From Porphyra umbilicalis (taxonomy: Eukaryota; Rhodophyta; Bangiophyceae; Bangiales; Bangiaceae), in the NCBI GenBank assembly GCA_002049455.2, contig KV918892.1, positions 1 to 64,000 on the forward strand: 64,000 nucleotides of DNA, in the 5' to 3' direction. The notes under the pieces are model-generated. The model did not search any database. It was not told where the DNA came from and saw only the letters and a program-made list of their open reading frames with translations. Shown in pieces: positions 1-62,848 of this stretch (within the stretch, counting starts at the first letter, position 1; each line of letters opens with the position of its first letter). The position numbers were made by a program, and so were the translations under genes.

Positions 1-2
1 GC

Positions 3-823
3 GGCGGCGGTCGCCCGCCGCCGCCCCCGCCGTGGGTGGTGGAAGTCGGCGGGCGCGCCGACGCGCGGCGGCCGCCGTCGCGCTCCGACGCTGCGTTTGC
101 GGCGCGCTCCGCCGCCTGGGCGGCGGGCGTGGCGGACGTGGTCGTTGCGCTCGTGCGGGCGGCCGACGCGGGGCGCGACGCGGCGGGGCTGCCGGATGTT
201 CTGCCCCCGTTTTTGGCCGAAGTCGCGCGCGCCGCGGGCGCGTCGCCGTCGGCGGCCGCCGCCGCCGTCGCGGGCGACGGCGGCGGCGGTGGGGGCGGCG
301 GCGGCGGCGGCGGCGGCTCCTTCCGACGCCGCACCGCGCTGGTGCTGGCGGTGCGCGACGCCGACGGCGGCACCTTTCACGACGATGCGGCGGCAGCGTC
401 GCTGCGCGCCTCCCTCGACGCCGTGTGGGCGGCGACGGAGGCGCCCGCCGTGGCCGACGGGGGGCGGTTGGGGGATTGGCTCGACGTGGCCGTCGTGCCG
501 CTGCCCCACTATGTGCACGCGCGGGGTGGCTGGGAGGCGGCCGTGGCGGACCTCGCGACGCGCCTCCGCCTCCCCGGCGGGACCCGACCCCCCGACGTGG
601 TTGCCGACGCGGCGGATGGGGCGTGCCTCCGCCGCCCGGCGTACAGCAAGGGCATCCCAACGGCGGGGCTGGTGCGGTACAGCCGCGCCGCGTGGGAGGC
701 CACCGCCTACGCGCCGGCGGTGGGGGGGGGGGGGGGGGATGGGGGGGGGGAGCAGCAGCGTCGGCGCCTCGGCGGCGGCCGCTTCGCGGTCCGCGTGGAG
801 TGGGGGCAGCGGGCGGCGCGGGC

Positions 824-854
<31 letters not shown>

Positions 855-1741
855 GCGGCCACGCACCGACGGGTTGGTGGATGAGCTCGACGGGGAGGGC
901 GGGGAGTGGGGCGGTGCCGACGCCACCGGCCGACCGTTTGGGGAGGCGGAGGAGGGGGGCGACGGCGGGGACGACGACCGGTGGGGCGCCGCCGGTGGGG
1001 ACGGGGGGGAACTCGCCGCCACCTTTCACTGCGACGCCGCGTTTGCGGCCGCGCTCGCCGCCGCGGGGGCGCACCACGGGGTGCTCGGGCGCGCGCTCGG
1101 TGCGGCCGCGTCGCCGCTCGACGGGCTCGGCGTTGCGCTCGACGCCGTTTGGGCGGAAGCCGCCGCCGCGTTCGAGGACGCGACGGCCGACTATGCCGAC
1201 ACGGGTGTGGCGGCGCGGAAGCGCGGTCAGCTGCTCGCGGCGCTCGACGTGGGGGGGCAGGCGCTGTTTACGGCGCAGCTGCGGCTGTTGCGGGAAGCCG
1301 CCCTGGCCGGCTATGTGGCGGCCACGACGGAGGGGGGGGGGTCAGGGGGGGGCGCCCCGCCCCCACCGCATCGGCCCCTGCGGGCGGTGGCGGCGGACGC
1401 GGGGGCGACGGCGGCGACGGCGCAGACGCAGACGGCGCAGACGACGCAGACGCAGACGACGCAGGCGCGGAAGGGGCGTCGCGCCCCTCGACGCCGCGGC
1501 CGTCCCCCGAAGGCGCCTACCTCGCCGCCGACGCGGCCTTTTGCGCCGGCGCCGCAGCGGCGACGCGCCCGGGCAGCGGCTGGTCGTCTGCGGCGACGCG
1601 CGGCGACCTCCACGCGTCCATGCAGTCCCTCGCCGCCGCCCGCCGCCGCGTCACGGCGGTGCGGGTGGCGGCCGCCGACGCGGCGGCGGACGTGGGGCGC
1701 TTCCTCGGGCTGCAGCGCGCAAAGCTGGGGGCCATCCAAGA

Positions 1742-1774
<33 letters not shown>

Positions 1775-1964
1775 GTCGGCCGGAGCGGGCGTGTGGCACG
1801 GGGGGGTGGCGGTGCGCCCGGGGGGGTCCCCACTCAACGTGTCGGTGGGGTACCAGGGCGGCCGCACCGCCGTGCAGGTGTCCCTGGTCCCAGACGACGC
1901 GGCGCACTGTACGTTGATGGGGGGGGGGGGGGGGGGTCAGCGAGGGGGACCCGATCCCCGGTGA
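3..1964 (+). CDS. RHD3/Sey1-type dynamin-like GTPase, 3' part
   Basis: Large GTPases of the RHD3/Sey1/atlastin group fuse ER tubules. The frame is open at the window edge, so the start and the P-loop lie outside. The reading DAAFAARSAAWAAGVADVVV followed by a GRDAAGLP stretch matches the region after G3 in RHD3. ALVLAVRDADGGT at about 340-380 carries the Arg-Asp motif that replaces the usual G4 motif in this group. LGDWLDVAVVPLPHYVHARG and KGIPTAGL also fit the end of the GTPase domain. A helical-bundle-like part follows (FHCDAAFAAAL, then YADTGVAARKRGQLLAALDV, near 1025-1320). The best reading changes frame around the G runs at 721-740 and 1331-1350. The final part ends at a TGA at 1962-1964. 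I did not see the C-terminal membrane hairpin of the family, so the 3' end may be wrong or the protein divergent. The family call is from memory. Confidence 0.6.
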
Positions 1965-2268
1965 CGCGGAGCGGGCGGGGCGCGTGCGTGTGGAGGGGTG
2001 AGTGGGGGCGGCGCGGTGGTGGCGCCGGTCGCCGACCGACGTCCATGACCCGTCCTGGTCGGGCAGAGATGCAGGGGCGACCAAACTAACACGCTCCGAG
2101 CTGTGGCTGTGGTCGGCTGGGTGTCCTGGGTGGCGCTGCCTCCTCGCTGTGACGGGGCGGGGGCGAGCGCAGACTTGGGGCCGACCGGCTTCACGGGCGT
2201 CGGGCCCGGAAACTTGGGCGTCTCGTACCACGCGACCCTGTGAGGGCGCCGCGCCGCGCAACGGCGGT

Positions 2269-2314
<46 letters not shown>

Positions 2315-2522
2315 CGTAGCGGCGGCGTTTAAACGCCGCCGCAAACGTTTGCGGCGGCGTGCCGCCGCCGCCCCGCCGTTGGTTCTCCGTGGCGGCGGGG
2401 GCTCAAATAGGAGGTCCCCGCCCCGTGTGGCTGCCCCTTGTCCCCCTGCCATTGTTTTGTCGGTTGCGGGCGTGCCGCGTCGGTCCCCCCCCCCCCCCCC
2501 TCGCCCCCCCCCCCCCCCCCCC
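1965..2522. other. Intergenic stretch between convergent genes
   Basis: This gap separates the 3' ends of the GTPase and methyltransferase-like genes. Apart from a GGC microsatellite and a short GCCGCCGC-rich inverted stretch just after it (about 2325-2372), I see no coding signal. Confidence 0.5.
2270..2314. repeat. (GGC)n microsatellite
   Basis: About fifteen uninterrupted GGC units, followed by GTAGC and more GGC. It lies in the convergent intergenic gap. Confidence 0.95.
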
Positions 2523-3329
2523 CTACCAGCGATCCCGCATCTGCTGCACGTCGTACACGAGCAGCTGCTTGCGGCGGCCGCGGGTGCCCCGCGCGAGCCC
2601 CCCCACCACCCGCGCGCTCGCGCCAAAGCGGAAGGGCGGGCCGCGCACGTTGAGCAGCGGCGCGTCGGCGCGCGCGCGGTGGCCGCCGTGGCGCCCCCCG
2701 TCGGTGGGGACCCCCCCCCCCCCCCTGGGGGCGCGCGCTCCCCCCCCCCCCCCCCGGCCCGCCCGTCCAGCTGCCGACGGCCAAGCGGCGGCTGCCACTC
2801 GCGGCGACGCGCGCAAAAAAGGCATAGGCGGTCGCCGGGGGGAGGTCGTCCAGCCCCGCCCACGCCCACACCACGTCCGCGGGCGGCAGGGGCGCCGCCC
2901 AGTAGGGGACCCCCCCCGTCGCAACGCCCCCCGGCAGCGCCGCGGCGGCGGCGACCGAGGCAGCGGGCAAGCCGGCTGCCCCTCCCCCCCCCCCCCCCCC
3001 CCCCCCGCCGCCGCCGCGCCGCCGTCGACGCACGTGTAGGCAAACGCGGGGCGCTCGTACGCGACGCGCGCGAGGAGGGCGGGCATCCACGCCGCGTGCG
3101 CGCCGCAGGGCACGTCGAGGAGGGAGCGCGCAGACGTGGTCACCAGCAGCCGGTAGAGCATAAAGGAGAGCGCCGTCACGTTGGTGCCCCCAACCACGTC
3201 CGTCGGGTGGAGGAGGCGGCGGGTGATGTGGGGGGGGGGGACGCCCCGAAAGGGCGCGACGGGCTCCGTGGGGTCCTCCTCGGGGGGGGGGGGGCGTCTC
3301 CAGACGGTGGGGCCCCACCGGCCGCGGCC

Positions 3330-3372
<43 letters not shown>

Positions 3373-3822
3373 CCGCCCGGCCGACGGGCGCCGCGTCGGC
3401 CGCGTCGGGCCCGAGCAGGTCCCGATTGTCCGTCTCGGGCAGGTCCGCCAACCGCTCGTCGACCGCCCCGCCGTCGGCCGCCGCCGCCGCCGCCGCCGCC
3501 GCGGCCGAGGCGGGGGCGGCCACAGTCGTCCCCCCCCCCCCCCACCCCCCCTCCGACCGTGCCGCCGCCACCGGCGGTGCCACCCCCCCACCCGCGAGCG
3601 CCCCCACCGGCGGTTGGCGTGTACCCCCCCCCCCCCCCCCCGCCCCCCCCTTTCCCCGCCGCACCCTCCGCACCCGCCGCCGCCACCCGCCGCTGCCGCG
3701 CGGCGGCCGCCGCCGCCGCCGCCGCCGCGCGCAGCGCCACCTCCTCCGCCTCGGCGGCCGCATCATCAAGCACCCCCTTCTCCTCCGCCTCGAGGCGCCC
3801 CGCGCGGCGCCCCCCCGCCGCC

Positions 3823-3853
<31 letters not shown>

Positions 3854-4172
3854 TCGCGGGCGCCGACGGGGCGGCCGCGGTCGCGGCGGCGCCGCGCACG
3901 CGTCCCCCCCCCCCCCCCCCCCCCCCCAGTGCGTCGCCAGCGACGTGGAGGTGCGGTCCCCCCCCCCCCCACCCCCCCCCCACGCCCACAGCCCCCCCCC
4001 CCCCCGGCGGCGGGGGGTCCCCCCCCAGCAGCAGCGACGTGAGGAAGAGGAGCCCCCCCGCCGCCGCCACCCGCCGTGCGGCGGTGGCGGCGCGGCAGAG
4101 GGCGCGCCGCGCGACCGCGCGGGTGGCGGCGGGGGGGGGACGACCCCCGCCGCCCGCCGGGGGGGGCGCCCC

Positions 4173-4206
<34 letters not shown>

Positions 4207-4216
4207 GGGGGGGCAT
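2523..4216 (-). CDS. Membrane-anchored class I methyltransferase-like protein
   Basis: The protein is probably an S-adenosylmethionine-dependent methyltransferase of unknown substrate. Near the middle (about 3060-3190) it reads NVTALSFMLYRLLVTTSARS followed by LLDVPCGAHAAWM. DVPCG is a typical motif I for binding the cofactor. AYTCVDG follows as the next strand. Further on DVVWAWAGLDDLPPATAYAF and GSRRLAVGSWTGG resemble motifs IV and V, and the end (LLNVRGPPFRFG ... LLVYDVQQMRDRW) fits the last strands of the fold. An N-terminal hydrophobic stretch (AAGGLLFLTSLLLGG, about 4040) suggests a signal anchor, so the catalytic part would face a lumen or the outside. The stop at 2523-2525 is clear. 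The start is uncertain: I chose the ATG at 4214-4216, which needs frame changes in nearby G runs. The region between anchor and catalytic core is Ala/Gly-rich filler broken by homopolymers. Gene limits are approximate. Confidence 0.55.
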
Positions 4217-4925
4217 GGCGCGCCCCCCCGGTGGCCGCCGGGAGGGGGTGGTCGGCAGCCGCGTGGCGGGGGGGGGGGGGGGTGGGAGGATGGGTGGGGG
4301 GGGGGGGGGGGGGTGGAACAGAGGCAGCGGCGCGCGGGCGTAGGGAGGGGGGGACGTCCAACAAGGGGGGAGGTGCGGGAGGGGGGGGGGGAGGCGGGGG
4401 GGGGGGAAGCGCAAAGACGACGGGAACGGGGTGGCGCCGAGCGGCGTGTGCGGCCGGGGGGGGGGTGTGGCCGGGAGAGCCGCTGGGGACGCGGGCGCCC
4501 CGAGCGCGGCCGGCGCGGCGAGCCCCCACCGCCCGGTGCGGGGGGGGGACACCCCCGCCGCCCCGCCTGCCGCGGGGCGCGCCGCCCCCCCCCCCCCCCC
4601 GCCGCCCCGTCGCCGCCACGGGCTGCCGCGGCGGCGGCGCGCCCTCACACGCCGCGCGCCGAGGCGGGAGGGACGGCTCCCTCCGGGGCCGCCGTGACGG
4701 CGGCGCGCACCGACCGCCGCCGCCGTCGCCGCTGCCGCCGCTGCGGTGGCGCGCCCCGCGGGCCGACGCGGCCGCCGCCGCCGCCGCCGCCGCTGCCGCC
4801 GCCGCTGACAATCCGCCGCCGGCGCATGGCGTCGGCGGGGGGCGCGCGGACCGAGCGGGGAGGCGGTTGCGCGGTGTTTTTGGGTGGTGGCGGGGGCGGG
4901 CGTGGTGGGCTCGTGGCGGCGGCAA

Positions 4926-5195
4926 CCCGCGCCGGAAAATAATCGATGGGACGGGGACGCGCGCGGCGCGGCGGTGCGAGGGACATCGTCCTCGGTCTCT
5001 GACGCTTGAGGCGGGCCCGGTTGTACGCGCCGGTGCGCCATGCGCCGACGCTGTGGCTCATCTGGTCACGGCACCTACTTTTCGGTGCAGATCTCCGCCG
5101 CATATGCTCTGTCCGACGGCTCGCTGCCAACTCTGGTATCGATTGAACCGCTCATCCGATTGCCGCGCTACGCGCTGCAACTCCTTGTCTGTATG
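4926..5195. other. Upstream flank, no gene seen
   Basis: Transition from GC-rich to ordinary composition upstream of the methyltransferase-like gene. No convincing frame or repeat was found here. Confidence 0.4.
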
Positions 5196-5498
5196 TGTGG
5201 CGCCTTACGATAAGATCCTCATTGTTTGCGCGAGCTTCATTTTTGACTTAGACACACCGTTCGACTCAGCTCATCGAGATCTGTCCTATGAGGCTATCTC
5301 CACGTCAATATGACCGAATACCAAGAACTGATCGTGACATGCATTCTGGCATATTTCTCCTCGACTTTGAGAATCGGGCTTGACGGCCCCGTACGGGGGG
5401 GTTTCTGAGAGACTTTAGAATTGTAGAAAACTTCAAGCGGCCATATCTCGGTTTGACCGATCTCAAGAAAAATGAGGATCTTATCGTAAGGCGCCACA
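5196..5498. mobile_element. 303-bp MITE with 28-bp perfect terminal inverted repeats
   Basis: Both ends carry the same 28-bp inverted repeat beginning TGTGGCGCCTTACGA (5196-5223 and 5471-5498, identical). The interior has no long frame. Related ends occur at 55716-55743 (28 of 28) and, inverted, at 61958-61985 (26 of 28), so this is a dispersed family. TGTA directly follows the right end and also occurs 2 bp before the left end, so a clean target duplication is not proved. The superfamily is not assigned. Confidence 0.8.
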
Positions 5499-48837: not shown

Positions 48838-50170
48838 CCCTACGGGAAATGCCGGATCAAAAAAGCTCCACTTCGAGGAGTTAAGAATTCGCAAAATCCC
48901 ACTCGGCTGGAATTTGAGGGTGAGACTGAGGCCGGCTCCTCATTGGCCTGATGATCAAAAAAGCTCAATGAATGAGACTCTGGAAAGGGCCTGAGAGGCA
49001 CCCTAACGGATTGTGCGGCTGCCATTGATTCGATTGAGCGGCTGTCGTTGCTCCAGGCACACAGATCTGACGAATAGAATGCACTTATGACATCATGATC
49101 CGGGCTGGCGTCTAGGTCTGCACGAATGAGAGGGAGACACGTGAGACCCACGTGTATCACAGGGTCCATATTTGCGCAATTGTAATCGGCTACACCGACG
49201 CTGGCGCCCCGACCGCGATGCCTACCTACCTGCGCTCTTTCCGTCCCCCATACCCCCACGCTCGCCCCCCCTCCCCCCCCCCCCTGCCCCCCCTTCCCCT
49301 CGCCTCCCCACCCCATCGCCCCCCTCTCCCCTCGCCTCCCCCCCCATCGCCCCCCCCCCCCTCGGCTCCCCCCCCCCCTCGCCTCCCCCCCCCCTCGCCT
49401 CGGCCCCCCCCGAGCCACGCCGCACACTACAAGCATGGCAGGAAGCTCTTGCTACCGTCGTCCTCCTCCTCTGGGTCGGACAGCCCGTCGTCGTCGGCGT
49501 CGTCGTCGGCAGGGGTGTAATGCCTCTCCAGCGCAGCCACCTCGGCAACCGCGCCCCCCCCGTCCCCCCCATCAAGCACACCACCCCCGCCCAAAACACC
49601 AACGACCAAGTCAGCCTGCCCACCCCCCCCCCGTCCGCCACGTCCCCCTGCTGCCGCGCCCACCTCCGCGGCCCCTGGAGGTCACCGAGCGGTAATGATG
49701 GTGGGGATGATGGTTTGTGCGAGTGGTGGGGATGATGGTGACAAAAGAGTGTTGAGTGCGATTGCCGAGCAGAGACGATGCCAGTGGCGGTCAGGTTGTA
49801 GCGGTCGATCGGGAGCGGTCGCGGATGAGAAGCGACTGTGGGTGCCGGGCACGACGGCGGCGACGGCTTTAAATGGGCATGGCACTGGATCACCTGACAT
49901 TTCTCGAAGGCTACTTTGACAAATGCACTTCTACGAGGCAACCCTCGTGGGCTACATCGAATTAGATCTGACATCTGAACAGCTTACAGTTTACAGCTGA
50001 TACTCTGGCCACTCACGGTGAAGTGTGCTGCAGTGGAACACCCTTTGATCCGAGTCAGGTCTTCAACTCCATCCGAGGTGATCCCGGTTGGGTCACAGGA
50101 GCAAATGCGCGAAACTGATTGGCCCGCTCTTAGGATGTCGAGCTTTTTCGATCCGGCATTTCCCGTAGGG
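48838..50170. mobile_element. 1.33-kb non-autonomous DNA transposon, CACTA/Harbinger-like
   Basis: Ends of 31 bp, inverted, match at 30 of 31 positions (48838-48868 and 50140-50170), starting CCCTACGGGAAATGCCGGAT. The element is flanked by CTA on both sides (48835-48837 and 50171-50173), a 3-bp duplication as made by CACTA or Harbinger transposases. A second GATCAAAAAAGCTC copy occurs near 48954. The interior has a long C/T-rich block (49250-49430) and a short acidic minus-strand frame (49427-49663, YTPADDDADDDGLSDPEEED), perhaps a captured piece. No transposase is present, so it would need one from elsewhere. High end identity suggests recent activity. Confidence 0.85.
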
Positions 50171-50653
50171 CTACGCCAGCAAGCGGTGGTCACGTCGGCG
50201 ACCACCACCACCGCCGCCATGGCCGCCTTCCTCGTCTCCTTTTTTCTGATCTCCCGCTCGTACGTGCGCTCCCAAGCGGCGCCGGTCGTGCAGGTGACGC
50301 TCACCCGGGAGGCGGTGCTCGACTTGCCTATGTATCTTTCGTCGTGTGAAAACAGTTCTATCGTTTTGCAAGTCCAGGGTGTTTTCGCGAACGCGCTTTC
50401 AGTTCTGCCTGACGTAGTTCAAACGCCAATGTGCGCCGCCGTCGACCCGCCCCGGATCAAGTTTGCGGCGTGCGCCACGCCCCGTCGCCGCCGTCGCCGC
50501 GGCCGCCGCCTCCCGCCGGCAGTGGTCTCGGCGCCGCCAACGGCCGCTTGGCGCCCCCCCCCCCCCCCTCCGTTTCCCCCCCGTTCCTCCATCCCACCCG
50601 CCTCGCCCTCTTCCAAGAACTCCCTCTTGTGTTCCCCCCCCCCCTACGCCGCC
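50171..50653. other. Upstream of the Pol5-like gene
   Basis: Short mixed region. A minus-strand frame from about 50304 (EREIRKKETRKAAMAAVVVV) runs into the transposon and might be the remains of a host gene. From 50560 it is C-rich and probably the leader of the next gene. Confidence 0.3.
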
Positions 50654-52538
50654 ATGGCGGCATTGACGGCCCCCCCCCCCCCCCCCCCCCCAAGGCAAGG
50701 CGACCCACCCCCGCCTCCCGCTCCCCCCCGCCACGCTGCGCCTCTTTGACGGCCTCTCGTCGGCGGCGCCCGCGGACCGCGCGGCGAGCACCGCCGCGCT
50801 GATAACGGCGCTGGGGAGCTCCCCCCCGCCGGCGTCACCTACGCCCTCGGGCGCCTCGTGCGCGGCACCGCGTCGGGCGCAGGGTGCGCGCGCGTCGGCT
50901 TTGCGTCCGCCCTCACCGCGGTCATCCGCTCCGGTCGGGGCGCGGGCACCCCCCTCGGTGCGGTGACGCCCGATGCGGCCATGGCCGCCGTCTTTACCCA
51001 CTACAAGGCCCCGCCGTCGGGGGGGGGGGACGCCGCCGCCGCCCCGCGCGAGGCCGCCCTCGGCCGCCTCTTTGCCACCGCCGCCGTCGTGCGCGCCGCG
51101 GCCGACGGCGGTAGCGGCGGCGGCGACGGTGGCGGCGCCGAGGCGGCGGCGGGGGGGACCCCGCCGCTCGGCGCTGCGGGCGCGGCGGCGGCGGCGTCGG
51201 CGCTCGCCGCGTGCGCCGCCGCGGGCGGCGGCCGCTGGGCGCTCGGCGACGCGGCGGCGGCGGTGGCGGTGGAGCTCCTCGGGGGGCGGGGGGCGCCCCC
51301 CCCCGACGCGCCCGCCGCGGTCGCCGCCCTTGTGGGGTGGGCGGCCGCCCGCGCGGCCACGTCCGACGGCCTCGTGGTGGCGGTGGCGCTCGACGCGGCG
51401 GGGGTGGCGCCATCGGGCGGGTGGCTCGACGGCCTCTACGGGCCCCTCGGTGCGGGCGGGGGTCCGCGCCTCGCCGCCGCCCTCGGCTCCCTCACCGCCG
51501 GCGCGTTTCCCCTGCCCGGCGACGGGGGGGCGGCGGTCGCCGCGTGGCGCGCCGCCGCCGCCGCCGTGGGCGCGGGGGGGGGGGGGGGGCGGCGCTCGCC
51601 GCCCTCTGGCGCGCCACCGTCACTGGGGGGCTCCTCGGGGGCGGCGCCGCCGTGGGGGTGGCCAAACGCACCGCCGCCGCGCGCGTGCTCCCCGTCGGCG
51701 TCGTTGCCGCCGCGACGGCGGGGGGGGACATCGCCGCCGCCCTCGGGGCGGTCCTCACCCCCGCCGCCGCCGAGGCGCTGGTGGCGGCGGCGGCCGCCGC
51801 CGCCGCGGGCGCCCCGCCCGCCCCCCGGCGTGGGGGGGGCAAAAAGGGCAGCGCCAAGGGGGCGGCGCCCAAGGCCGCCGCCGCCGCCGCCGCCGCCGCT
51901 GCGGCGCGCCGCTCCGTCGCTGCCGCCGCGGCCGCCGTCGGGCCGTCGCTCGCCGACGGCGTTGGGGCGCTCCCGCCCTCGGCCGGCCGCTCGGCGGCGG
52001 CGGCGGCGGTGCTTGCGTGGGCGCTCCCCTCCCCGCCGCTGACGCGCGCGCTCGGCGGCGCGCCGCTGCGGCGGCTGGCGGCGGTGGCGGACGTGGCGGC
52101 CGTTGGGGGGGTGGTTGACGGGGTGCTCGGGCGGGCGGCGGGGGGGGGGGGCGCCGCGTCGGCGGCGGCGGCGGTGGACGTGCTCGCCGCCGCCGCGGGG
52201 GGGGGAGGGGGGGGGGGGGGCGACGAGGGGCACGACGACCGCCTCGCGGCGGTCGTTGCCGCGCTCGCGGCGGTGGTGGCGCGCGGGCGGGGGGGGGGGG
52301 GGGGGGGGGGGCGACGCCCGTGGCGGCAGCGACGGGTGCGCTCGCCGGCCGCAAGCTCCTCGGCCTCCTGTCAGAGGGGGGTGGGGGGGGGGGGGGGTCG
52401 CCCCGCTCGCGTCCGCGGCGCTCGCGCGTCTCGCCGACGCGGGCGTCGGGGGCGGGTGCGCGTCGAGCGGCGAGGACAGCTCGGCGGGCAGCGGCGGCGG
52501 CGGCGGGGGGAGCGACGACAGCGACGCGTCGACCGACG

Positions 52539-52569
<31 letters not shown>

Positions 52570-52929
52570 CGGTTGGCGCACGCCCGCCGACGTGGCGGCG
52601 GGCGTGGAAGTCGAGTGCGCGGCGCTGCTCGGGCGGCCGCCCGCAACGGCGGCGGTGCCGGCGGCGGTCGGCGACGCGTTTGGGGCGCTCCTCTCCCTCG
52701 CGCGCCTCGGGCGGGTGCTCCTCGGCGCCGAGGCGGCGGGGGGGGGGGGGGGGGGGGGGTGGGGGTGCCCCGCCGCCGGCGGGGCCGGGCGCGCCGGCGG
52801 GCAGCGCCGCCGCCGGCAGCGTCGTTGACGCAGAGTTGGGGCCGTACCTCGCCGACTTTTTGACGGCGCTGCGGGCGGCCATTGGGGTCGTGTGGGGGGG
52901 CGAGGCCAGCGGCGTGTCAGAGGGGGAGA

Positions 52930-52963
<34 letters not shown>

Positions 52964-54920
52964 CAGCGACGGTGGCGGCAATGGGGATGGCGGGAGCGAG
53001 GGCGACCGCCCGTCGGGCGGTGGCCGTCTGTCGGCGGGCGGCCACCTGCTGCGGGCCGTCCTCGCCGGCTTGTCCGTCCCGTCGGCGCCGCTGCGCGACG
53101 CCGTGGCAGAGGTGTGGCGGGAGCTGGTGGCCGCCGACGGCGTCGACGACGACGCCCTCGACGTCCTCTTTTCGGCGTTTGACGCGGAGGAGGAGGGGCC
53201 GCCCGCTGGGGAGAGCGACGAGGACGACGACGGGGAGGGCGACGTGGGGATGGACACGAGTGGCAGCGAGGACGGGGAGGACAGTGGGAGCGACGAGGGG
53301 GAGGGCGATGCCACGGACGTGGCCGGCAAGGCGCGCGCGGCGGCAGCGTCGGACGACGACGGGTCGTCAGACGACGATGACGACGACGACTGCGACGGTG
53401 GCAGCGACGACAATGTCGGCGCTGCCGACGCCAATGCCAGCGACGGCTCGACCTCTGCTGCCTCGGCCTCGGACGTGGACGCGGACGAGGAGGACCCCGC
53501 GGCGCTCGCGCGCTTTGACGCCACCCTCTCGGCCGTCCTCTCCCACGTCATGGCCAAGCGCGGCGCGCCCGCCGCCGCCGCCCGCCGCCGCCGCTCGGCG
53601 GCGGCCACCCGCGCGCGCGCCGCCGACGCGGTCGCCGTCTACGCCCGCGCCTGCCGCCGCACCCTCACCGCCGCGTCGGCGGGCGGCGCGGCGGCGGCGG
53701 CGGCGGCGGCGGCGCCCGCCGCGTCGGCCGCGACCACCACGGCCGCCGCGGCCGGGCTGCTCGGCCTCGCCCCCCGCCTCGTCACCGCCGCGGCGGCGGC
53801 GCCCGACGTGGCGCCCCGCCTCGCGGCCGTCCTCACCAAATCCGTCGCCCGCCCGCCGGCGGCGGCGGCGCGCGCCCTCGGCGGCCACCCCCTCGGCGCG
53901 CAGGCGGCGGCGGCGATTGTGGCGGCCGCGTCCGAGGCGGGGGGGGGGGGCTACCCCCGCCCGTGCGTGCCGCCGCCGCCGCCGCCGCGCGCGCGGCAAC
54001 GGCGGTGTTTGTCGCCCCCCCCGCCGACGGGGGGGCGGTCGCCGACCCGGCCGTTGCGGCGGCGGCGCCCGCCGCGGCCGTCGCCCTCTACGCCCGCTCC
54101 CGGGGCAAGCGGTGGCCCGCCGGTACCGTCGAGGCGGGCCTCTGCTCGGGCCCCCGCCCGTGGCGGCGGCCGTTGTGGGGGCCGCCGCGGCGGCGCTCGC
54201 CGCCCCGTCCACGGGCGCGTACGGGCGCGCGGCGCTCGTTGGGGAGCTCCGCCGGGGCCTCTCGGGCGCCCCGCCCCCCGTCGTCGCCGCGCCGCCCGTG
54301 TGGGCGGCGGTGCGCGACGCGGTCGTTGCCGCCGCCGCCGCCCTGTCGCCGCCGCCCGCCGCCGCCGCTCGGCGCGCCGACGGCGAGGTGGGTGGGGGCA
54401 CCAAGGCGTCGGCGGCGGCGGCCGCCGCCGCGCGCGCTGCCGACGTGGCCGCCCTGGCCGCCGCCGCCCTCCTCGGCGGCGGCGGCGGCGGGGACCGCGT
54501 CGGCCCGGGGGCGGCCGTGTGGTCGCCCGCCGCCGTGCGGGGGGTGGCCGCCCGCCTTGCCGCCGCGGCGGCCGCCGGGGGGGGCGCGGGGTGGGGGGGG
54601 GCGCTCCGCAAAGACGGCCGCAACGGCCGCGGCGTTGGCGGCGGTCGCCGACCGCCTGCCCGCCGACGGGGGGGAGGGGGGGGGGGGGCGGGGGGGGGGG
54701 AGGGGGGGACCCGCCCCCGCCGCCGCACAAGACGCCCGCGGGGAAGCGGCGGCGCAAGGCGCCGCCGCCGACGCCCGCGGCGGCCGCCGACGCTGCTGCT
54801 GCGCCACTGGCGGCGGCGACGGCGGCGGCGGCGGCGGCCGCAACGCCCGCGGGCAAGCGGCGGCGCAAGGGCGCGCCGCCGCCGGCGACGGCGAGCGCGC
54901 GCACGACGCCGTCCGCCTGA
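50654..54920 (+). CDS. Pol5/MYBBP1A-like nucleolar protein
   Basis: Pol5/MYBBP1A proteins are HEAT-repeat-like nucleolar factors needed for rRNA synthesis. The N-terminal signature is visible near 50740-50930: LRLFDGLSS, then VTYALGRLVRGTASG and CARVGFASALTAVI, matching the YALKRLVRGLASSR and GFxxALTELL block of the family. Long Ala-rich helical repeats follow, with PLRRLAAVADVAAVGGVVDG in the middle. The segment HLLRAVLAGLSVPSAPLRDA with VAEVWRELVAADGVDDDALD (about 53040-53160) fits the family's region before the acidic stretch. A long Asp/Glu/Ser region (53200-53500) follows, as in Pol5. The C-terminus has two TPAGKRRRK motifs, likely nucleolar signals, and stops at 54918-54920. Start: ATG at 50654. 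The best reading changes frame at many G/C runs (for example 51574-51590, 52200-52220, 52295-52320, 52383-52397, 52738-52760), so the internal structure is provisional. Confidence 0.6.
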
Positions 54921-56826
54921 GCGCCGCGGCGTTTGGGCCGTTTGGGGGGGGGGGGGGGGTGCCCCGCGGGTGGCGCGGTGAGGGGTACCGTGGGCGCTGT
55001 GGGTGGAAAGAGACTGCCCGTGGAGGCCGTGCGGCGCCCGACTGTTTTTTCGCGTTGCACCCGTAGCGGGCGTCTCGACCAAACGTGTGGTTGTTGCCGC
55101 GCCGTCGCACCGCCGACGTCGGCGGGCGCGACGCGACGCGCTGCGGGGGCCTCCCCCGTGGGGCCCCCGTCCACGGATGGGCCGTCCCGCTGCACGCGCG
55201 GGGGCGGTGCAGCGCGGGCTGCCGCCCGCGCGGGGTGGCCACCCCCCCACCCGCCCCGCCCGCCACCCCCGCCGACCGACCGACGCCGGCCGCCGCCACG
55301 CCCGCCCCGACGGCGCACGGGCCAGACGCCGCGCGCGCTGTCGCCGGCGCAGCGGCACCCGCCCCACGGTCGCCGCCCGAGCGCCGCGGCGGCGCGCCCG
55401 CCCCCACAACGCGTGCCGCACCGGCCGCCGCGCCAGCCGCCGACGGCGCCGCCAGCGCTGGTTGGCGTTGGGAAAAAATAGGAGACTGATCGAATAGTAT
55501 GAAAAATGAATACTGTCCAAGTAAACGACAGATTGATCGAAGTTGTCCGTCCAGAATTTGTATTTTGGCCATCCCTGTATCAGGACGTTCTCGTCATAAG
55601 AGCATTGGAGACAACGGAATATGGGTCGCGAGTCTTCTATTCCAGTCCGTGTGGGCCACTTTTATTCATGTTGTGCTGAATCAGCTTTCTGTTGTAAAGA
55701 GAACGCACTGGAATATGTGGCGCCTTACGATAAGATCCTCATTGCAATTGAGATCGGTCGAGCTGAGATACGGGCCTTTGAAGATTGTGCATCCAAAAGT
55801 CTTCCGGAGCGACCCCCTCAGTGCCCGGCGAGGGGGTTCCACGCAGCAGTCAGTTGAGCCGCGTGATCCAGGCCCCACGCCAGTGTGCGCGTGCCGCTCC
55901 ACCTCGCCACCGAGCGCACAGCTGTGACAGTCACGTCTCGACCGACACGCTGCCGAGTCCGGCGTTGTCAGCCTTTCCGTTATTGCTGGGACACCTGGGA
56001 GAGCGCGGCCACAGGTGCACCGCATCTACGTGACTGCACCGACAGCTGGGGTGTACCTCCTCGCTCTGCCGCGGACTGTTCACGTTCATTCATCGAACGG
56101 CACACGACGCGCCTTCAGTCAGGTACGATGGTAGAGGGGTCTCGCGGCTGGCACTGGTGACCAGCCGCTGTCCGCTGTCTCATGGCTCCTGGAGTTGGTA
56201 GGCACTCGGCGAGCAGTCTCTTTGGACGTCTCCTGTTGTCTTGCTGGGTGAGCAGCAGCCTCCCGGCGCCCACCGCAGGGCTCTGAGGCGGTGGTGGCGT
56301 CCTGAGATTAGCGGACTGGGTCTGGTACTGACGCCTGTCAGGGCCCCCTCCACTGCCTCACGGCTCCCGACAACCGTTTCATGTCGGTTGGCTGGCGCGT
56401 CGACCCTTCTGCTTCGATTTGAGCTGGCAGGTGCCTGCGTCGACTGCAGCTCGAGCTGGAGCTGCCGCCGTCGGCTCTGTTGCTGGGTCTTCCCCGCCAG
56501 CCGTTTCTTATCGATGGGCCTACGTACTTGTCGGACAGTTTCGCTTTTGCACCGATACCTGCCCGAGCCCAGGCTCCCGCCGTGCGCTCCGCGTGCCTGT
56601 CGGGTCGTCGGCGCTCGCGAGCCCTCCAATAGCAGGTTGCCGGCGATATCGCGGCTTATGGGTACGTGTGCATGCGTGCTCCACGTGGGATGCCTCTACT
56701 TAAGACCTGTGGGCACACAAGGGCTGCTCTGCTGCTGGCCTCTCTGCGGGATCTTGCCAACTCACCTTACCTCTATCTATCCCGCTCCACAGCTGTCCTG
56801 GTGCCCCTGCAATTGGGTGCCCGACT
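54921..56826. other. Intergenic region and leader of the split-element gene
   Basis: 54921-55480 is GC-rich without a gene. From 55490 composition becomes ordinary. A solo copy of the TGTGGCGCC-type end lies at 55716-55795. From 56160 to 56826 the strand is C/T-rich and may be promoter and leader of the gene starting at 56827. Confidence 0.4.
55716..55795. mobile_element. Solo end of the TGTGGCGCC MITE family
   Basis: The first 28 bases match the terminal repeat of the 5196-5498 MITE perfectly. The next 50 match the right arm of that element with changes (GAGATCGGTC, then GAGATA). No second end is found nearby, so this is a truncated copy. Confidence 0.75.
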
Positions 56827-59055
56827 ATGTCGTCTCTTCGGGACTGGATGACGACCAACAGGTTTGAGAAATACCTGGTTGCCTTTGAAGAGGAGATGGG
56901 GGTGCAGACGGTTTCAGACTTGGAGTTCGTCACCCCGGGCGACCTTGAGCAACTCGGCGTCATGCCAGTGCAGCGTCGGCGGTTTCAGCGGCTCGTCTCT
57001 GCTCAGTCTGTGCAGACGGCTCTTCCCGCCGCACCGCGGACGGCCCAAGGCATGCTCCCCGCTCTTCCCGCTTCACCTGAGGCGGCACTGCTCGTGGTCG
57101 CCCCTCTTTCCGCGGCACCTGCTGTAAGTCGCCCATGGGCCCCACCGATGGGGATTTCCATCGTCAACGCTGGCGCTGCCGTTTCGGGCGGGCAGACGAC
57201 CAACGACCTGCAGATGGACAAGGGCGGTGACTCCACCAAAAGACCCGCCCGCAACACCGAGTCGCCGTCGAGGTTCGGCAGGCGGGCGAACGTGCCAGAG
57301 GACCCCACACAAGACGACGGTAGCAGCGACGGTTCCGACTTCCAGATCGACCCCGAGGACGAGAGCAGCGGCACCGACTCGACCGACATCAACTCGACCA
57401 GGCGGGCGCGAAAGAGGCGCAAGTATGTGCCGGGGCCGGCTCGGCGCCTGAACCACGCCACGGTGTTGGCGGAGGGGCGGGCGTGGCGGCATCTTCCCGG
57501 AACGTACAGTAACGGCACGGTACCTACCTCTTTCGAGGCGGCATCCTCGGCGCCAGCAAGCCGCGTATCCTTCGACGCGAACGGCCGCTGCAGCTGCAAA
57601 TCCGTGATGACTTCCTTTGCGGACCGGCTTACGCCGGCTCGGCGTACAGCACGAGAGCGGCGTAAAGCGGAGAAAGACGGGGACTGCAAGGGCGCCCAGT
57701 CGGTGTACAACTACGCGCGCCTGGGGTCGATCGTCATGGACCTGCTGTTCGATGGGCAGGGCAACATGGTCGTGCACGAAAAGTGCGCGCGCGAGTTCCT
57801 CGGGGTCTCCAACGCCTGGCTCGCCCAACGCCACAAGCAGGCTGTGCAAGCGGCCAAGGCCCCGGTTGTCCTCATGACCAAGTCCGAGATTGCGTCCAGC
57901 CCAAACTCGGAGGGCCTCATCAAGCGCATCATCAGACCGGACACCTGCCTGCTCTCCGTGTCGCAGTTTTACACAAGCAGCTCGGAAAACTGGCGCTTCA
58001 AGGTGGTGGCCGTCTACTCCGACCACGCCCTCTCGGGGCGACCATCCAACCGCATGAAGTCGGCGGAGCGCGAGCTGTTTGTTGTCTTCGTGCGGGCACA
58101 CAGGACGCCAACGGGCAGGACACCCGACAAGAATGGGCGCTACCACGGGGCTGCCTACTACTTGGACGCCAAGTGGAAGGTGTTGCGAATGGCGGCGGAC
58201 AAGGTAAGCGGCGACTGTGCCCGACTCTCCTTCTCGGCCGGCTTTATAGAGGCGCTCGTGGCGTCAGGGCGTGCAAAGGTCAACGGAGAGGTGCCCCTAC
58301 GCTGGCTGAAAGAGTACTTTGGGTCCACGCTCCGCGTCGACGGCATGGCGGTCCCGTCAGAGGAGCACACAACCCTGTACCCGCACAAGACAGACGCGTG
58401 CTCAACTTGCGAGTGCCTGCGAGCCGACTTGCGGTCAGCCCGCCAGGCGATGAAACGTCATGAGCAGCAGGGCGACAAGGGCTCTCTGATCCGGCAGTAG
58501 GCCATCGCGGAGGTGAAGCGAACGATCGCAGACCTGGAGGCGGCACACGAAGCGCACGAGGATGAGGCGGCCTGCGCCGTGCAGCACCACCGCAAATGCG
58601 TGGTCAACGCCGCGAAGCGGTACGAGCGCCTGTCGGTGCTGTTCTACCAGCTGTTTCCTGCAGACGCGACGGACATGCAGCAGCCTGTGGACGTTGACGA
58701 CGCTAAGCTGGAGGCGCTCGTGTGCGCAGCCAGTGATGATTGGTTTGATTTGTCTTCAGACTACCAGCAGGACAAGTCCGTGCCGGTGTGGAACCAGTCT
58801 TCGCAGCCTGGACCCACTTACTTCATGTCGGGCCACACCCATTACGTGCACATCTTTTGTGCCGAGAGCTGTGGGTCCGCCAACGGTCGCACCCGCTTCT
58901 CCCGGAACAACGTTTACACGCGCAGCGAGATGGTGGGCGGCGCCAAGTCATCGGATGACACCCTGTCGACGCTATGCGACCTTCTACTGGGCTCGCTGAA
59001 CAACGGCGTCGATGACCCCCCTGTGTACCGGACAGGATACGGCCCCGAGCACTAG
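56827..59055 (+). pseudogene. SAM-domain protein with N-terminal part of a DUF7869-like core
   Basis: An ATG opens a frame of 742 codons interrupted by one TAG at 58498-58500. Residues 1-60 form a sterile alpha motif domain (LRDWMTTNRFEKYLVAFEEE, then LEQLGVMPVQRRRFQRLV). An acidic then basic linker follows, with NLS-like RRARKRRKY. CSCKSVMTSFADRL and VVHEKCAREFLGVSNAWLAQ match the Cys motif and 'Ck-aFl-llgIsn' block of DUF7869-type proteins, uncharacterised and probably transposon-borne. PHKTDACSTCECLRADLRSA and a coiled coil follow, split by the TAG. The end has WFDLSSDYQQDKSVPVWNQS and QPGPTYFMSG, the start of the RNase-H-like core, with a likely catalytic Asp. It stops just before the strand carrying the second Asp, which lies in the convergent gene at 59200-61236. 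Marked pseudogene because of the stop; read-through is possible. Confidence 0.65.
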
Positions 59056-59199
59056 CTCCTTCTCTTGACGTGGCGCCGTTATCACCTCCCGTGTGCATCT
59101 TGTTTGATACATCTCTTTGGTAGCTCTGATACTAGTGCTTTGTTTTCCCTTTTCGTTGTCGCGGAAAATAACCTCGGCTCTCGACAGAGAACATAGAAT

Positions 59200-61236
59200 T
59201 TATTCATGCAAGTCATCCCTCGACTTGGCCATCACCCTGGCGTGCCGCTTGATCGTGGCAGGCTCCCACTCCTGGCCGTCCTCCTGTGGCATTCTGGTCG
59301 CAATGACCGCCCAGTCCTTGAGCGCTCGCGGCAATTGTTCGTTGTACGGAGCACAAAGAAGCAGGTCTGCAAGCGGCTTTGCGTGTTGGAGCTTGACCCA
59401 TCGCATCTTCCTTGAGCGCCCCGGAGCCGGGCAGATCGCGGTACCGCCGCATCCTTCAGCGTCTTTGGCTTCCGTCACGGCTGTCGCAACGCCCGGCGTG
59501 GTCGATTGCTCCGTGGTGGCGGGCGAAATGGACGTCTGTCTCCACACGGCGCGTGCCATGCCGCTCGCACCGGTTTCGGAGACGGCGTAGTCGTCGGGTA
59601 CAAACCGGCGGGGCACGTACTTCTTGTACATCTTGGCGATCGACTCGGCCTTTGCTCCATATGGCACCTTGCTCTGCTCCAGCCCGTACGGCTTGATCGC
59701 GTCGATGGCCGCGTTGACCTGCTCAACCGTCGTCGCGGACATCCATCCCCGCTGCTCACGCCAGACTGGGTCCGCGGTGGACCGGCGAGTGAAGAGTCGC
59801 ACCCGTCGGTAAGACAGCACCGCTGGAGGTAGCAGCATCGTCTGCTTTGGGGTGTCGCTGAGGCCCCCCACCGCATCCCGCCCAATACCCCGATACGCAC
59901 CCCGGCGGAGCGCGGGGAAGACGCTCGACCGGAGCCCGCGACCAGCCGCCTTGGTGCATTCTCGCAAGAGGACATGGTCCAAGAATAGTGGTCCAGGGTC
60001 AGGGAACGCCTCAAAATTGGAGGGGGGGGAGGCGACGGGGCTCCCAAGGTCCACATGTCCGTCGTCGGCCAGGAGCAAGATGCATCGGTAGGACATGATG
60101 TGTTGAATGGGCGTGAAAACCGTTGGGGTGCCATGCTTCCATGTCCGCAGGAGCTTCTCGTTGTAGGCGCCCGCAGTCGCGTACGCGCGGAAGAGGCGCA
60201 CCAGCTGCCCGTGGTTGTACACGTCCGACCGGTTGAAGATACACGCCAAGGACCGTGCCACCAGGTCTGGGCCAAACTTGGTATGGCCCACAACCATATA
60301 AAGGACCTGCGCGCAGTCGGCAACGCCGCACGCTAGCAGCAAGCCCAGGCCCCCAAAAAAGAACTGGGACTTGTTCGTGCCCGGACATGAATCCATGTGC
60401 AGTCGAAGCTTCCGTACGAAGGGAAGCGGGACCCTTGAGCGCTGGGTGGCGCCGAGCGCACCAGGTAGCTCACCAACTGCCCGACCTCCTCGTGCGCCAG
60501 CGTCAACATTCGCAGGAGCGTCGTCGGAGACGGCGCCGCTGCGCCCCGCATCGGCCGATTCCCCAACATCTTCATGAGGAAGACCGCTGGCGTCGCCAGC
60601 CGCTTCACCGTCCGCCGCCAAGTCGAGGGCGCCGCCGTCGTGGAGCCGGTGGGCGGCAGCCGCAGCGCCGCCTAGGCGGAGCGCATCGGTCGCCCCGAAG
60701 AAACCCGCGTTGGGCCGGGGGCGAGCGCCGCTAGTCGCTTCACCGTCTGCGGCCACGTCGAGGGCGCCGCCGTTGTGAAGCCGGAGAGGGGCTGTCGCCA
60801 AGCCGTCGCCGCCTACGCGTGGAGTATGGGCCGCGCCTTCAAAATCCGCAGGGGGGGGGGAGCGGGCGCCGCCGGCAGCCCCACTGTCCTCAGCTACGCC
60901 GAAGGCGCCGCCATCGTCGAGCCAGAGAGTGGCCGCCGCCGGGCCGACGCCTCCTCGGCGGAGCTCATCGGTCGCCCGGCCAGAGGCACCGAGGGGGAGC
61001 GAGGGAGCGCCACTGGCGGGGCCACCGATCGCCACCAGGGGCAGGGTGCCGTTGCAACCAGGCCTAGGAGCGTCCGCTGCAGACAAGCTGGCCGCCCTGG
61101 AGCCAGGGCCCCGCACAGGGAGGCCCACGCCAGCCGCATACAGCATGAGAAGACCGTCGCTGCCACGCGTACGGTGACTGCCGCTTGGGGAGGCAGTGGG
61201 GGTGGCGCCCCCAGCGCCCGCGGACGCGTCCGCCAT
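59200..61236 (-). CDS. C-terminal part of a DUF7869-like core with low-complexity leader
   Basis: Convergent with the gene above; the stops are 144 bp apart. The ATG at 61234-61236 opens 678 codons without interruption. The first ~280 residues are low-complexity, with repeated LRLHNGGALDVAADGEA-type units. Then comes LPFVRKLRLHMDSCPGTNKS, which matches the 'lHaDNCxGQNKN' strand of DUF7869-type proteins. VLYMVVGHTKFGPDLVARSL matches their 'GHTKF-pD' block, and IFNRSDVYNHGQLVRLFRAY the helices after it. The domain ends with ordinary sequence and a basic tail (RHARVMAKSRDDLHE). The Asp of HMDSC and the residues of GHTKFGPD would belong to the same active site as the Asp in the other gene. The frame stays open upstream of 61236 to 61773. 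Function in transposition is inference. Confidence 0.65.
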   Translation of the reverse strand: MADASAGAGGATPTASPSGSHRTRGSDGLLMLYAAGVGLPVRGPGSRAASLSAADAPRPGCNGTLPLVAIGGPASGAPSLPLGASGRATDELRRGGVGPAAATLWLDDGGAFGVAEDSGAAGGARSPPPADFEGAAHTPRVGGDGLATAPLRLHNGGALDVAADGEATSGARPRPNAGFFGATDALRLGGAAAAAHRLHDGGALDLAADGEAAGDASGLPHEDVGESADAGRSGAVSDDAPANVDAGARGGRAVGELPGALGATQRSRVPLPFVRKLRLHMDSCPGTNKSQFFFGGLGLLLACGVADCAQVLYMVVGHTKFGPDLVARSLACIFNRSDVYNHGQLVRLFRAYATAGAYNEKLLRTWKHGTPTVFTPIQHIMSYRCILLLADDGHVDLGSPVASPPSNFEAFPDPGPLFLDHVLLRECTKAAGRGLRSSVFPALRRGAYRGIGRDAVGGLSDTPKQTMLLPPAVLSYRRVRLFTRRSTADPVWREQRGWMSATTVEQVNAAIDAIKPYGLEQSKVPYGAKAESIAKMYKKYVPRRFVPDDYAVSETGASGMARAVWRQTSISPATTEQSTTPGVATAVTEAKDAEGCGGTAICPAPGRSRKMRWVKLQHAKPLADLLLCAPYNEQLPRALKDWAVIATRMPQEDGQEWEPATIKRHARVMAKSRDDLHE

Positions 61237-62848
61237 GTCGTCTGTGAAGGCAAGTGAGGCACCAAGAGGGGAAGAAAATAGAAAGGAGAGAACGCATGGC
61301 ACTGATATCGCTGTCAGACACCGCTGCCCAACCGCGCACAGAGCGTCGACCAAAAAAGAAACATGAAGGTAGCCAGCTGTGGTCCGTGTCAGCTCTCTCC
61401 TAGTCCTAGCACCCTTATAGCGATGGCGACGTACAGAGAACAATCGTGAAGTCGATACTCGCAGCGCAGAGCGGCACGTGCGGCAGTGCACGGCGGAGCG
61501 CGGCGTGGACGATGGGGCGCACGCCTCAAGGGCGAGCGTAGCGCCACGAGCGGCAGTGCCCCGTGGAGCGTGGCGGTGCACGGAGGAGCGCGGCGTAGGC
61601 AACCCGGCGCACGTCTCAAAAGCAGCGGGGCAAATGGCAACGAGCCCCCGACTCACGGGAGTCTCCGGCAACCGCGCGCGTGAGCCCGCCAAGTGCGGAT
61701 CCCGCCAAACAGCAGGGGTGGCGCGAGTTGAGCTGCTGCATCGCGGTCTGTCGTCGGAGATGTAGCCCGCCAATGAACTCTATAATCGGTGCACTTTTCT
61801 GGGCTTTGCCTAAAGTCACTGAAATGTGAAGATTCGACTTATGCCTCTGTAATTGCCAATGCGGATCGCCCTCGCTTGCAGAAGGGGCGCCAACGGAGTG
61901 ATCACGACTCGGCGCATCTGGTGGCGGTCCTATCTCGAAAAAGACGTTCGCGCAAACAATGAGGATCTTTTCGTAAGGCACCACACATCTAACGCAACGG
62001 CACTGCAGCGACCTCTGTGCGAGCAACACCTTCCAATTGACCTCCACCCCCAGCACCATCACCCCTTCCCCCTTGGAGAGACGCCCCGGCCGACCATATG
62101 ACAGGGCGGCGGTCGATGGAGATGGGGGATGTAGTGGGCATAGTGCGAGTTTTGGATGGAGGGGCGCCGGCAGTTAAGGGCGTTGGGGGGGGGGGGGGTG
62201 ACGGCATCGGGGGGGGTATGGTGCCGTTTGACAAATGCATCTTGTACGGTGCAAGATGATGCGCCTTCTCGATACACCCCAAAAATGGAGACACAAGCGC
62301 CCGTGGTGGGCGCCAAGCCCGGGCTGAGACGAGCGGTGGTGGCACAACTAGCGCCACGTGTGTGGCCACGTGGTCCTCACCGACCGGTATTTGGCGTGGG
62401 TCGGATGACCCAGATAGCCACAAATGGGTTCCAAATGTGGGTAACGGCTGCTACGTGGCACGAAACGTGCCGTCGATCCACGCCGCCGACCCACATTTGA
62501 CTTGCCGACGCTCTCTATTCTGCACTGCGTGTTTCCTCGGAGACATGGAGCTGCATGACGTATCCGGTGTGTGCAGCGCCCCTGGGCCTTCTTTGTCAGG
62601 CATCGTCCTGATGCAGGAGGGGTCTGGGTACGATCACAGCCCGAGGGGACAGCAATTACGTTCTGGCAAGGCCACAAAAGCTTGATCACGCGACTGTTGT
62701 GCGTAGCGCACCCACCGCCTCATTTGTGCCTCATCCAACTTCATTCCAATGGTGCAGCCGCCTACGTCGCGGTGGGGCAGTAGCCTACGCTGCGGCAGTG
62801 CAGCAACGTACGTTGGGGCGCACTCGACCTGACAGCGGTGTCGGGTAC
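61237..62848. other. Intergenic, repeats and MITE end
   Basis: Upstream of the minus-strand element gene. A direct repeat of about 91 bp (GCACGG-GGAGCGCGGCGT units near 61486 and 61577) may be part of its promoter. No gene is seen. No clear terminal inverted repeats for the two-gene element were found here or before 56827. Confidence 0.35.
61886..61985. mobile_element. Solo end of the TGTGGCGCC MITE family, inverted
   Basis: The last 28 bases (61958-61985), read on the minus strand, match the family end at 26 of 28 positions. The next ~70 match the left arm of the 5196-5498 element (GTTTGCGCGA then diverging). No partner end was seen. Confidence 0.7.

Follow-up and report, generated by a model that had tools for sequence, protein, structure and literature searches.

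We have analysed a window of 64 000 nucleotides from the red alga Porphyra umbilicalis (assembly GCA_002049455.2, contig KV918892.1, positions 1 to 64 000 of the forward strand; C132 among the contigs named below). At 55716-61985 the window holds a DNA transposon of 6270 bp with terminal inverted repeats (TIRs) and two convergent genes, gene A on the plus strand and gene B on the minus strand. The two genes carry, divided between them, a core that bacterial proteins of the DUF7869 type (Pfam PF25273, a domain of unknown function) carry in one polypeptide. We think it fairly probable that the element encodes a DDE-type (Asp-Asp-Glu) transposase with an active site completed by two proteins; that the catalytic DDE sheet is permanently divided, its proteins coming from opposite strands and neither of them cutting DNA alone, appears to us nearly as probable.

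Two genes and one unsplit protein

Gene A occupies 56827..59055 of the plus strand (ATG at 56827, stop codon at 59053-59055) and, as judged from its frame and from alignments, comprises an N-terminal SAM domain, a middle region and a C-terminal half-core with strands 1-3 and helix 1. The SAM domain (56863..56991) scores 24.6 bits against SAM_TNK (cut-off 25), with scores at or above the cut-off in all five other loci scanned (C151, C3, C290, C484 and C16); on C198 and C28 there was no alignment to the SAM part. The half-core (58753..58998; SSDYQQ...QPGPTYF...RSE...KSSDD) was delimited by alignments and a low-confidence model. It has the codon of the presumed first catalytic Asp at 58759..58761 (SSDYQQ), aligned with an Asp that is invariant in nine unsplit bacterial proteins. 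A preliminary description of this DNA had placed QPGPTYFMSG near the end of a plus-strand gene, and indeed 76 residues remain between QPGPTYF and the stop.

Gene B is convergent with gene A at a distance of 144 bp and occupies 59200..61236 of the minus strand, from an ATG at 61236 (MADASAG) to a stop at 59200-59202. Its open frame and alignments show a variable low-complexity leader, followed by the other half of the core and then by a conserved tail; the motifs HMDSCPGTNKS and GHTKFGPD lie in it, as described earlier. In the leader (60415..61236) the ATG and the ∼43 residues following it (M...GSDGLLMLY) can be aligned in C132, C69, C151 and C3, i.e. in four of the nine loci scanned by pattern, while the rest is variable; the earlier claim that the second gene has a start codon and a leader of its own is thus supported. 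The DUF7869 match (60178..60414, strand 4 onwards) covers profile positions 59-137 of 192 with an E-value of 1.7e-5 and 24.9 bits (27.9 bits in the genome search; cut-off 26), and gene B scores up to 33.8 bits in other copies. Both the codon of the presumed second catalytic Asp (60391..60393, in HMDSCPGTNKS) and that of the presumed third acidic residue (60265..60267, in GHTKFGPD) specify residues that are invariant with the nine unsplit proteins.

To collect unsplit relatives, genome contigs were searched with a degenerate DxxCxGQNKN pattern. Among the 49 loci found, 11 carry the wider motif DNC.GQNKN...GHTKF.PD in frame. Inspection by eye showed the strand-1 and YF-type region within that frame in all but one of them (10 of 11; L104 begins too late). 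The alignment comprised nine of these loci, including the incomplete L119 and L092, and excluded L079 and L104. These relatives are single polypeptides of 635-668 aa, and the three that were scanned match DUF7869 with E-values from 4.8e-14 to 2.8e-18. In six of the seven loci examined (L085, L122, L078, L102, L100 and L107) the unsplit gene lies between inverted repeats of 39-61 nt, at distances of some 13 to 420 bases from it; no such flanking repeats were found at L082. An example is the element at L085:4578-6701, with its protein at L085:4642-6645, from an isolate of Desulfocicer vacuolatum; most of the other relatives come from metagenome bins titled as bacteria, which could be mis-binned. 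The bacterial elements look like insertion sequences with a single DUF7869 protein, possibly an undescribed family, and their flanking inverted repeats are evidence that DUF7869 is the core of a transposase. We found no relatives in a viral collection by the gene A C-terminal profile, the window gene B core or the DNC.GQNKN pattern; the unsplit protein had no match in plasmids at an E-value of 1e-5, and the alignment of the nine unsplit proteins had no match by sequence among solved structures at E-values up to 1. In one bacterial genome (G006, contig C69:11926-12168) we saw a weak DUF7869 match over profile positions 6-87 in a frame of 200 aa, which may represent a domain fragment or a different break.

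Profile comparison by hhalign places both halves on the unsplit protein. The gene A family (five sequences) aligned with columns 294-445 of the nine unsplit proteins (E-value 3.7e-5, probability 71%), a C-terminal gene A alignment (seven sequences) with columns 330-444 (E-value 1.3e-4, probability 54%) and the gene B core (six rows) with columns 461-585 (E-value 6.4e-13, probability 97.9%). These three alignments scored 49.5, 39.1 and 103.4, respectively; when the columns were shuffled 150 times for each, the highest scores were 27.7, 26.9 and 24.2, and reversed alignments scored 13-17. In direct alignments with the nine bacterial proteins, half A of the window is 17-25% identical to them and has the invariant residues S, D, Q, P, F, K and L in common with them, and half B is 23-28% identical and has the D.C.G.NK and GHTKF.PD set in common. 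In all six genome matches to DUF7869, profile positions 1-58 are not in the same polypeptide as the rest. By these comparisons halves A and B are homologous, in order, to one unsplit protein, with the seam between its helix 1 and strand 4; the break had been said to fall in the linker between the two motifs, and so it does.

The element, its copies and their constraint

The borders of the transposon (55716..61985) were set by comparison with C69, by the inverted-repeat ends and by the termini TGTGG...CCACA. The window and C69 copies are 97.9% identical over 55713-61988 and identity stops at those borders; the termini themselves were positioned by means of the 2-bp duplications of related elements. 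Arm pairing and a genome pattern search define the left TIR, TGTGGCGCCTTACGATAAGATCCTCATTG, at 55716..55744 (plus strand) and the right TIR at 61957..61985 (minus strand); the arms 55713-55744 and 61957-61988, of 32 nt, are 91% complementary. With up to three mismatches allowed, the terminal pattern has 175 matches in the genome, 88 forward and 87 reverse (0 in the control). We took 30 loci from the listed matches and scored duplications in 18 two-ended elements: 16 of the 18 have a 2-bp target duplication, including all 14 of 302-303 bp, the exceptions being the window copy (TA/CA) and C151. The element is a cut-and-paste-type TIR (class II) DNA transposon. The 14 elements of 302-303 bp among the fetched loci are non-autonomous derivatives with the same ends, so that movement in trans has occurred; the window itself contains one of 303 bp at 5196..5498, identified by the terminal pattern and a TG duplication.

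Parts of A and B served as queries in a search for copies in the draft assembly (83.8 Mb, 665 contigs); protein and profile searches scored the best candidates only. An A/B pair was found on C132 (the window), C69, C151, C3, C290, C484, C198 and C28, and it is convergent in all eight, which answers the earlier proposal to look for other copies with this arrangement. Gene B of C484 is truncated by the contig end. Over residues 240-742 of gene A, identity to the window copy goes from 97% down to 45% in six other copies. The ranking of 21 copy pairs by A and by B gave a Spearman coefficient of 0.80 (the pairs are not independent; C28 and C16 were left out). The stop codon of gene A is TAG at the equivalent place in 8/8 copies, five codons later in C484. 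With the arrangement and the stop shared by all eight, the pair is not merely a broken inversion, as had been argued. Inverted repeats lie outside both genes in five of the eight copies (C132, C69, C151, C3 and C290, the last with a 30-nt pair of similar sequence enclosing both genes); the search that gave the C290 pair found none around C198, C28 and C484.

The preliminary description had also named what would speak for a rearranged copy, namely an uninterrupted gene elsewhere in the genome, and none was found among the best candidates scored, with either PF25273 or an unsplit-protein query. All six PF25273 matches in the genome are gene B, starting at profile position 59 or 60, whereas the best matches in six bacterial genomes, taken as a control, all start between profile positions 10 and 36. 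A query made of the last 337 residues of an unsplit bacterial protein gave six genome matches, all of them gene B loci, none of which covered the first 109 residues of the query.

We estimated the ratio of nonsynonymous to synonymous substitution rates (dN/dS) by the pairwise Nei-Gojobori method for seven copies (21 pairs), with frames assigned by tblastn. For the gene A core half dN/dS was 0.08-0.22 in 16 pairs and the other five were saturated; this half-core is in most pairs the most constrained of the measured parts of gene A. The gene B core gave 0.09-0.25 in 18 pairs, with two saturated and one pair, C132-C69, at 0.59, a value probably inflated by a frameshift in C69. Values were 0.20-0.62 for the gene B tail (three pairs saturated) and 0.32-1.27 for its leader, which is poorly alignable (C484 left out) and less constrained than the core. 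As the copies have the split at the same place, they would most simply have diverged after it, and both halves have been under purifying selection since the split. A shared split points to an ancestral one, older than the divergence of the known copies.

Several other observations concern the element and its surroundings. A locus on C16 (L037, C16:401500-411499) has the SAM part of A and then the tail of B on the opposite strand, with no core; it is apparently an internally deleted relative. Three weak gene B-like matches were seen on C244, C7 and C624 (E-values 0.24-0.41). On C138 (C138:107289-124488) six terminal-repeat matches run in the same direction with spacings of 3671, 3672, 3672, 3081 and 3081 bases, a tandem array that may hold element ends. 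A variant of the terminal repeat, TTTGGCGCCTTAGGATAGAATCC, recurs on many contigs with no matching partner nearby among the matches listed, and perhaps marks a sister family. To the right of the element, window positions 61984-62522 are 93% identical over 540 bases to L032:9368-9904, which adjoins the C3 copy outside the C3 element; this is perhaps another repeat, possibly an insertion target of the transposon. In window 1-5300 and 50000-55500 the G+C content reaches 82%, and both strands carry long, overlapping frames of low complexity, of which probably not every one is a gene.

Fold, mechanism and alternative explanations

The unsplit L085 protein was modelled with AlphaFold 2 (AF2) at a predicted local distance difference test (pLDDT) score of 73 and a predicted template modelling (pTM) score of 0.52. 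The model has strands at 360-373, 389-398 and 404-410, a helix at 419-432, a strand at 439-444, a helix at 450-465 and a strand at 471-476; this order (b-b-b-a / b-a-b) is that of an RNase H-like core, and the A/B seam falls between helix 419-432 and strand 439-444. D366 is on strand 1, D445 directly follows strand 4 and D487 comes after strand 5, giving three conserved acidic candidates in DDE order. The best-ranked Foldseek matches in the PDB were a chain of a V-K CAST assembly (E-value 0.0036) and TnsB of ShCAST (0.005), then Mos1 (0.0074, probability 0.92, and 0.015); after these transposase complexes came varied proteins, NurA and Argonautes among them. An AF2 model of the C-terminal half of gene A from the window repeats the order of the L085 model in its three strands and one helix, though it is not independent of it, having been built on an alignment that included the bacterial proteins.

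These features suggest how the element might work. An ancestral DUF7869-type transposase would have been broken once into two opposite-strand genes. If both are expressed, the gene A protein would contribute the SAM domain, the middle region with a Cys motif, strands 1-3, helix 1 and the first catalytic Asp. The gene B protein would contribute a variable leader, the rest of the core from strand 4, with its second Asp in DSC.GTNKS and its third acidic residue in GHTKFGPD, and the conserved tail. The proteins would associate, strand 4 of B completing the sheet of A, and only the pair would cut and join DNA. SAM domains in general serve in self-association or tethering, and that of A could do the same.

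A number of observations weigh against this reading. The comparison with Pfam proposed for both halves gave a DUF7869 match close to the cut-off for gene B and none for gene A, and a fusion of A and B left the match starting at profile position 59, with no extension. Because Pfam is blind to half A and the fusion yields no longer match, the link of A to the unsplit proteins rests on profile comparison, motif order and position. In the L085 model the third acidic residue, D487, sits in a loop with pLDDT below 50; no PDB match reached an E-value of 0.001 or better, and the first four had TM-scores of 0.17-0.20 by query length at root-mean-square deviations of 15-22. The model of the gene A half is of low confidence (pLDDT 58, pTM 0.32) and has residue 87, the presumed first Asp, immediately ahead of the first strand (89-97); in C198 the presumed first Asp is Asn. 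The window copy's gene A is interrupted by an in-frame TAG at 58498..58500. Thus, of the two open genes described earlier only gene B is open here, the TAG having been overlooked. It is a nonsense change private to the window copy, since the codon reads Q or K in other copies; the same comparison led us to reject recoding or an intron edge as the meaning of the stop. More generally, none of the eight copies in the assembly has both genes open, each being damaged or cut: the aligned part of gene A is uninterrupted in C151, as it is in C198 beyond about residue 84, and gene B is open in C132 and C3. No present source of both proteins is therefore seen.

Such lesions are what one would expect if the split copies were a dead or non-autonomous lineage moved by an unsplit transposase encoded elsewhere, and the 302-303-bp relatives do demonstrate movement in trans. 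Still, all eight copies with a lesion or a cut have to be set against the failure of both PF25273 and the unsplit-protein query to find an unsplit copy among the best candidates scored, and against the low dN/dS in both halves after the split, which is unexpected for a dead arrangement. We regard this explanation as unlikely.

The start of gene B raises the question of how its core is translated. In C132 and C69 there is no ATG directly before the conserved part, the nearest being 249 residues upstream, so gene B is either read through its variable leader or joined by splicing; its conservation also starts abruptly, near VPLPFVRK. Messages of the two strands could then be joined by trans-splicing into one frame for a single, undivided transposase. 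However, the gene A stop is at an equivalent place in every copy and the last gene A residues look protein-coding. The ratio of nonsynonymous to synonymous differences per site (pN/pS) over the last 17-22 codons is 0.16-0.76, and at most 0.56 in 17 of 21 pairs. On the gene B side, the ATG and first residues are alignable in four copies and the leader is open in all six copies examined. Trans-splicing seems to us quite unlikely.

It could also be supposed that A and B are no longer a nuclease and have separate roles, e.g. DNA binding or tethering for A and an accessory function for B. The Asn of C198 fits this, as does the SAM domain of A, of which no match was seen in the three bacterial relatives scanned. 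Yet the acidic residues are otherwise kept, C28, a near relative of C198, having Asp at the presumed first catalytic position; the strongest constraint measured in A falls, in most pairs, on the half-core, and no other transposase gene was seen in the element. We consider separate roles improbable. Finally, a draft of 665 contigs and frameshifts that could be sequencing errors in several copies might suggest an assembly artefact or a single rearranged copy, an idea to which we give practically no credence given the same arrangement on eight contigs at about 39-98% identity and inverted repeats outside both genes in five of the eight copies.

Comparison with known systems

If a transposase with an active site completed by two proteins is the right interpretation, a DDE active site can assemble in trans, the first Asp coming from one protein and the other two acidic residues from another. 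The element would then be a natural two-component (AND-gate) transposase, and an obligate one, stable over long evolution. In the open text of PubMed Central (PMC) we found no literature naming DUF7869 or its motif string; among the matches listed there was likewise no natural split or two-gene transposase with a divided DDE core and no algal transposon of a matching kind.

The unsplit bacterial relatives resemble the element in several respects: they have S.D..Q...P...YF, then an acidic residue and a K ahead of helix 1, DNC.GQNKN and GHTKF.PD in the same order, strands and helices that follow one another in the model as in an RNase H-like core, and flanking inverted repeats. They differ in having one polypeptide, in element lengths of 2.1-2.7 kb and in the lack of a SAM match in the three scanned. 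As for the layout, MuDR of maize is also a convergent two-gene TIR element; there, unlike here, MURA holds the whole catalytic core. RAGL/ProtoRAG elements, as described in PMC7204232, are TIR transposons with two closely spaced convergent genes and 5-bp duplications, in which the catalytic domain is again whole in one protein, the DDE core being in RAG1 with RAG2 assisting; the layout is alike, and in the element described here the core itself is divided.

Divided proteins and paired transposases are each known separately. The mitochondrial cox2 gene is split into cox2a and cox2b, which encode complementary polypeptides after gene fission (PMC5374615); it is an organelle gene, unlike the transposase of a mobile element. 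The piggyBat transpososome has, by the title of PMC13405395, been recast as an obligate heterodimer, with two different proteins per transpososome, as would be the case here; that heterodimer is by the same title an engineered one, whereas the division of the core in the Porphyra element would be a natural one.

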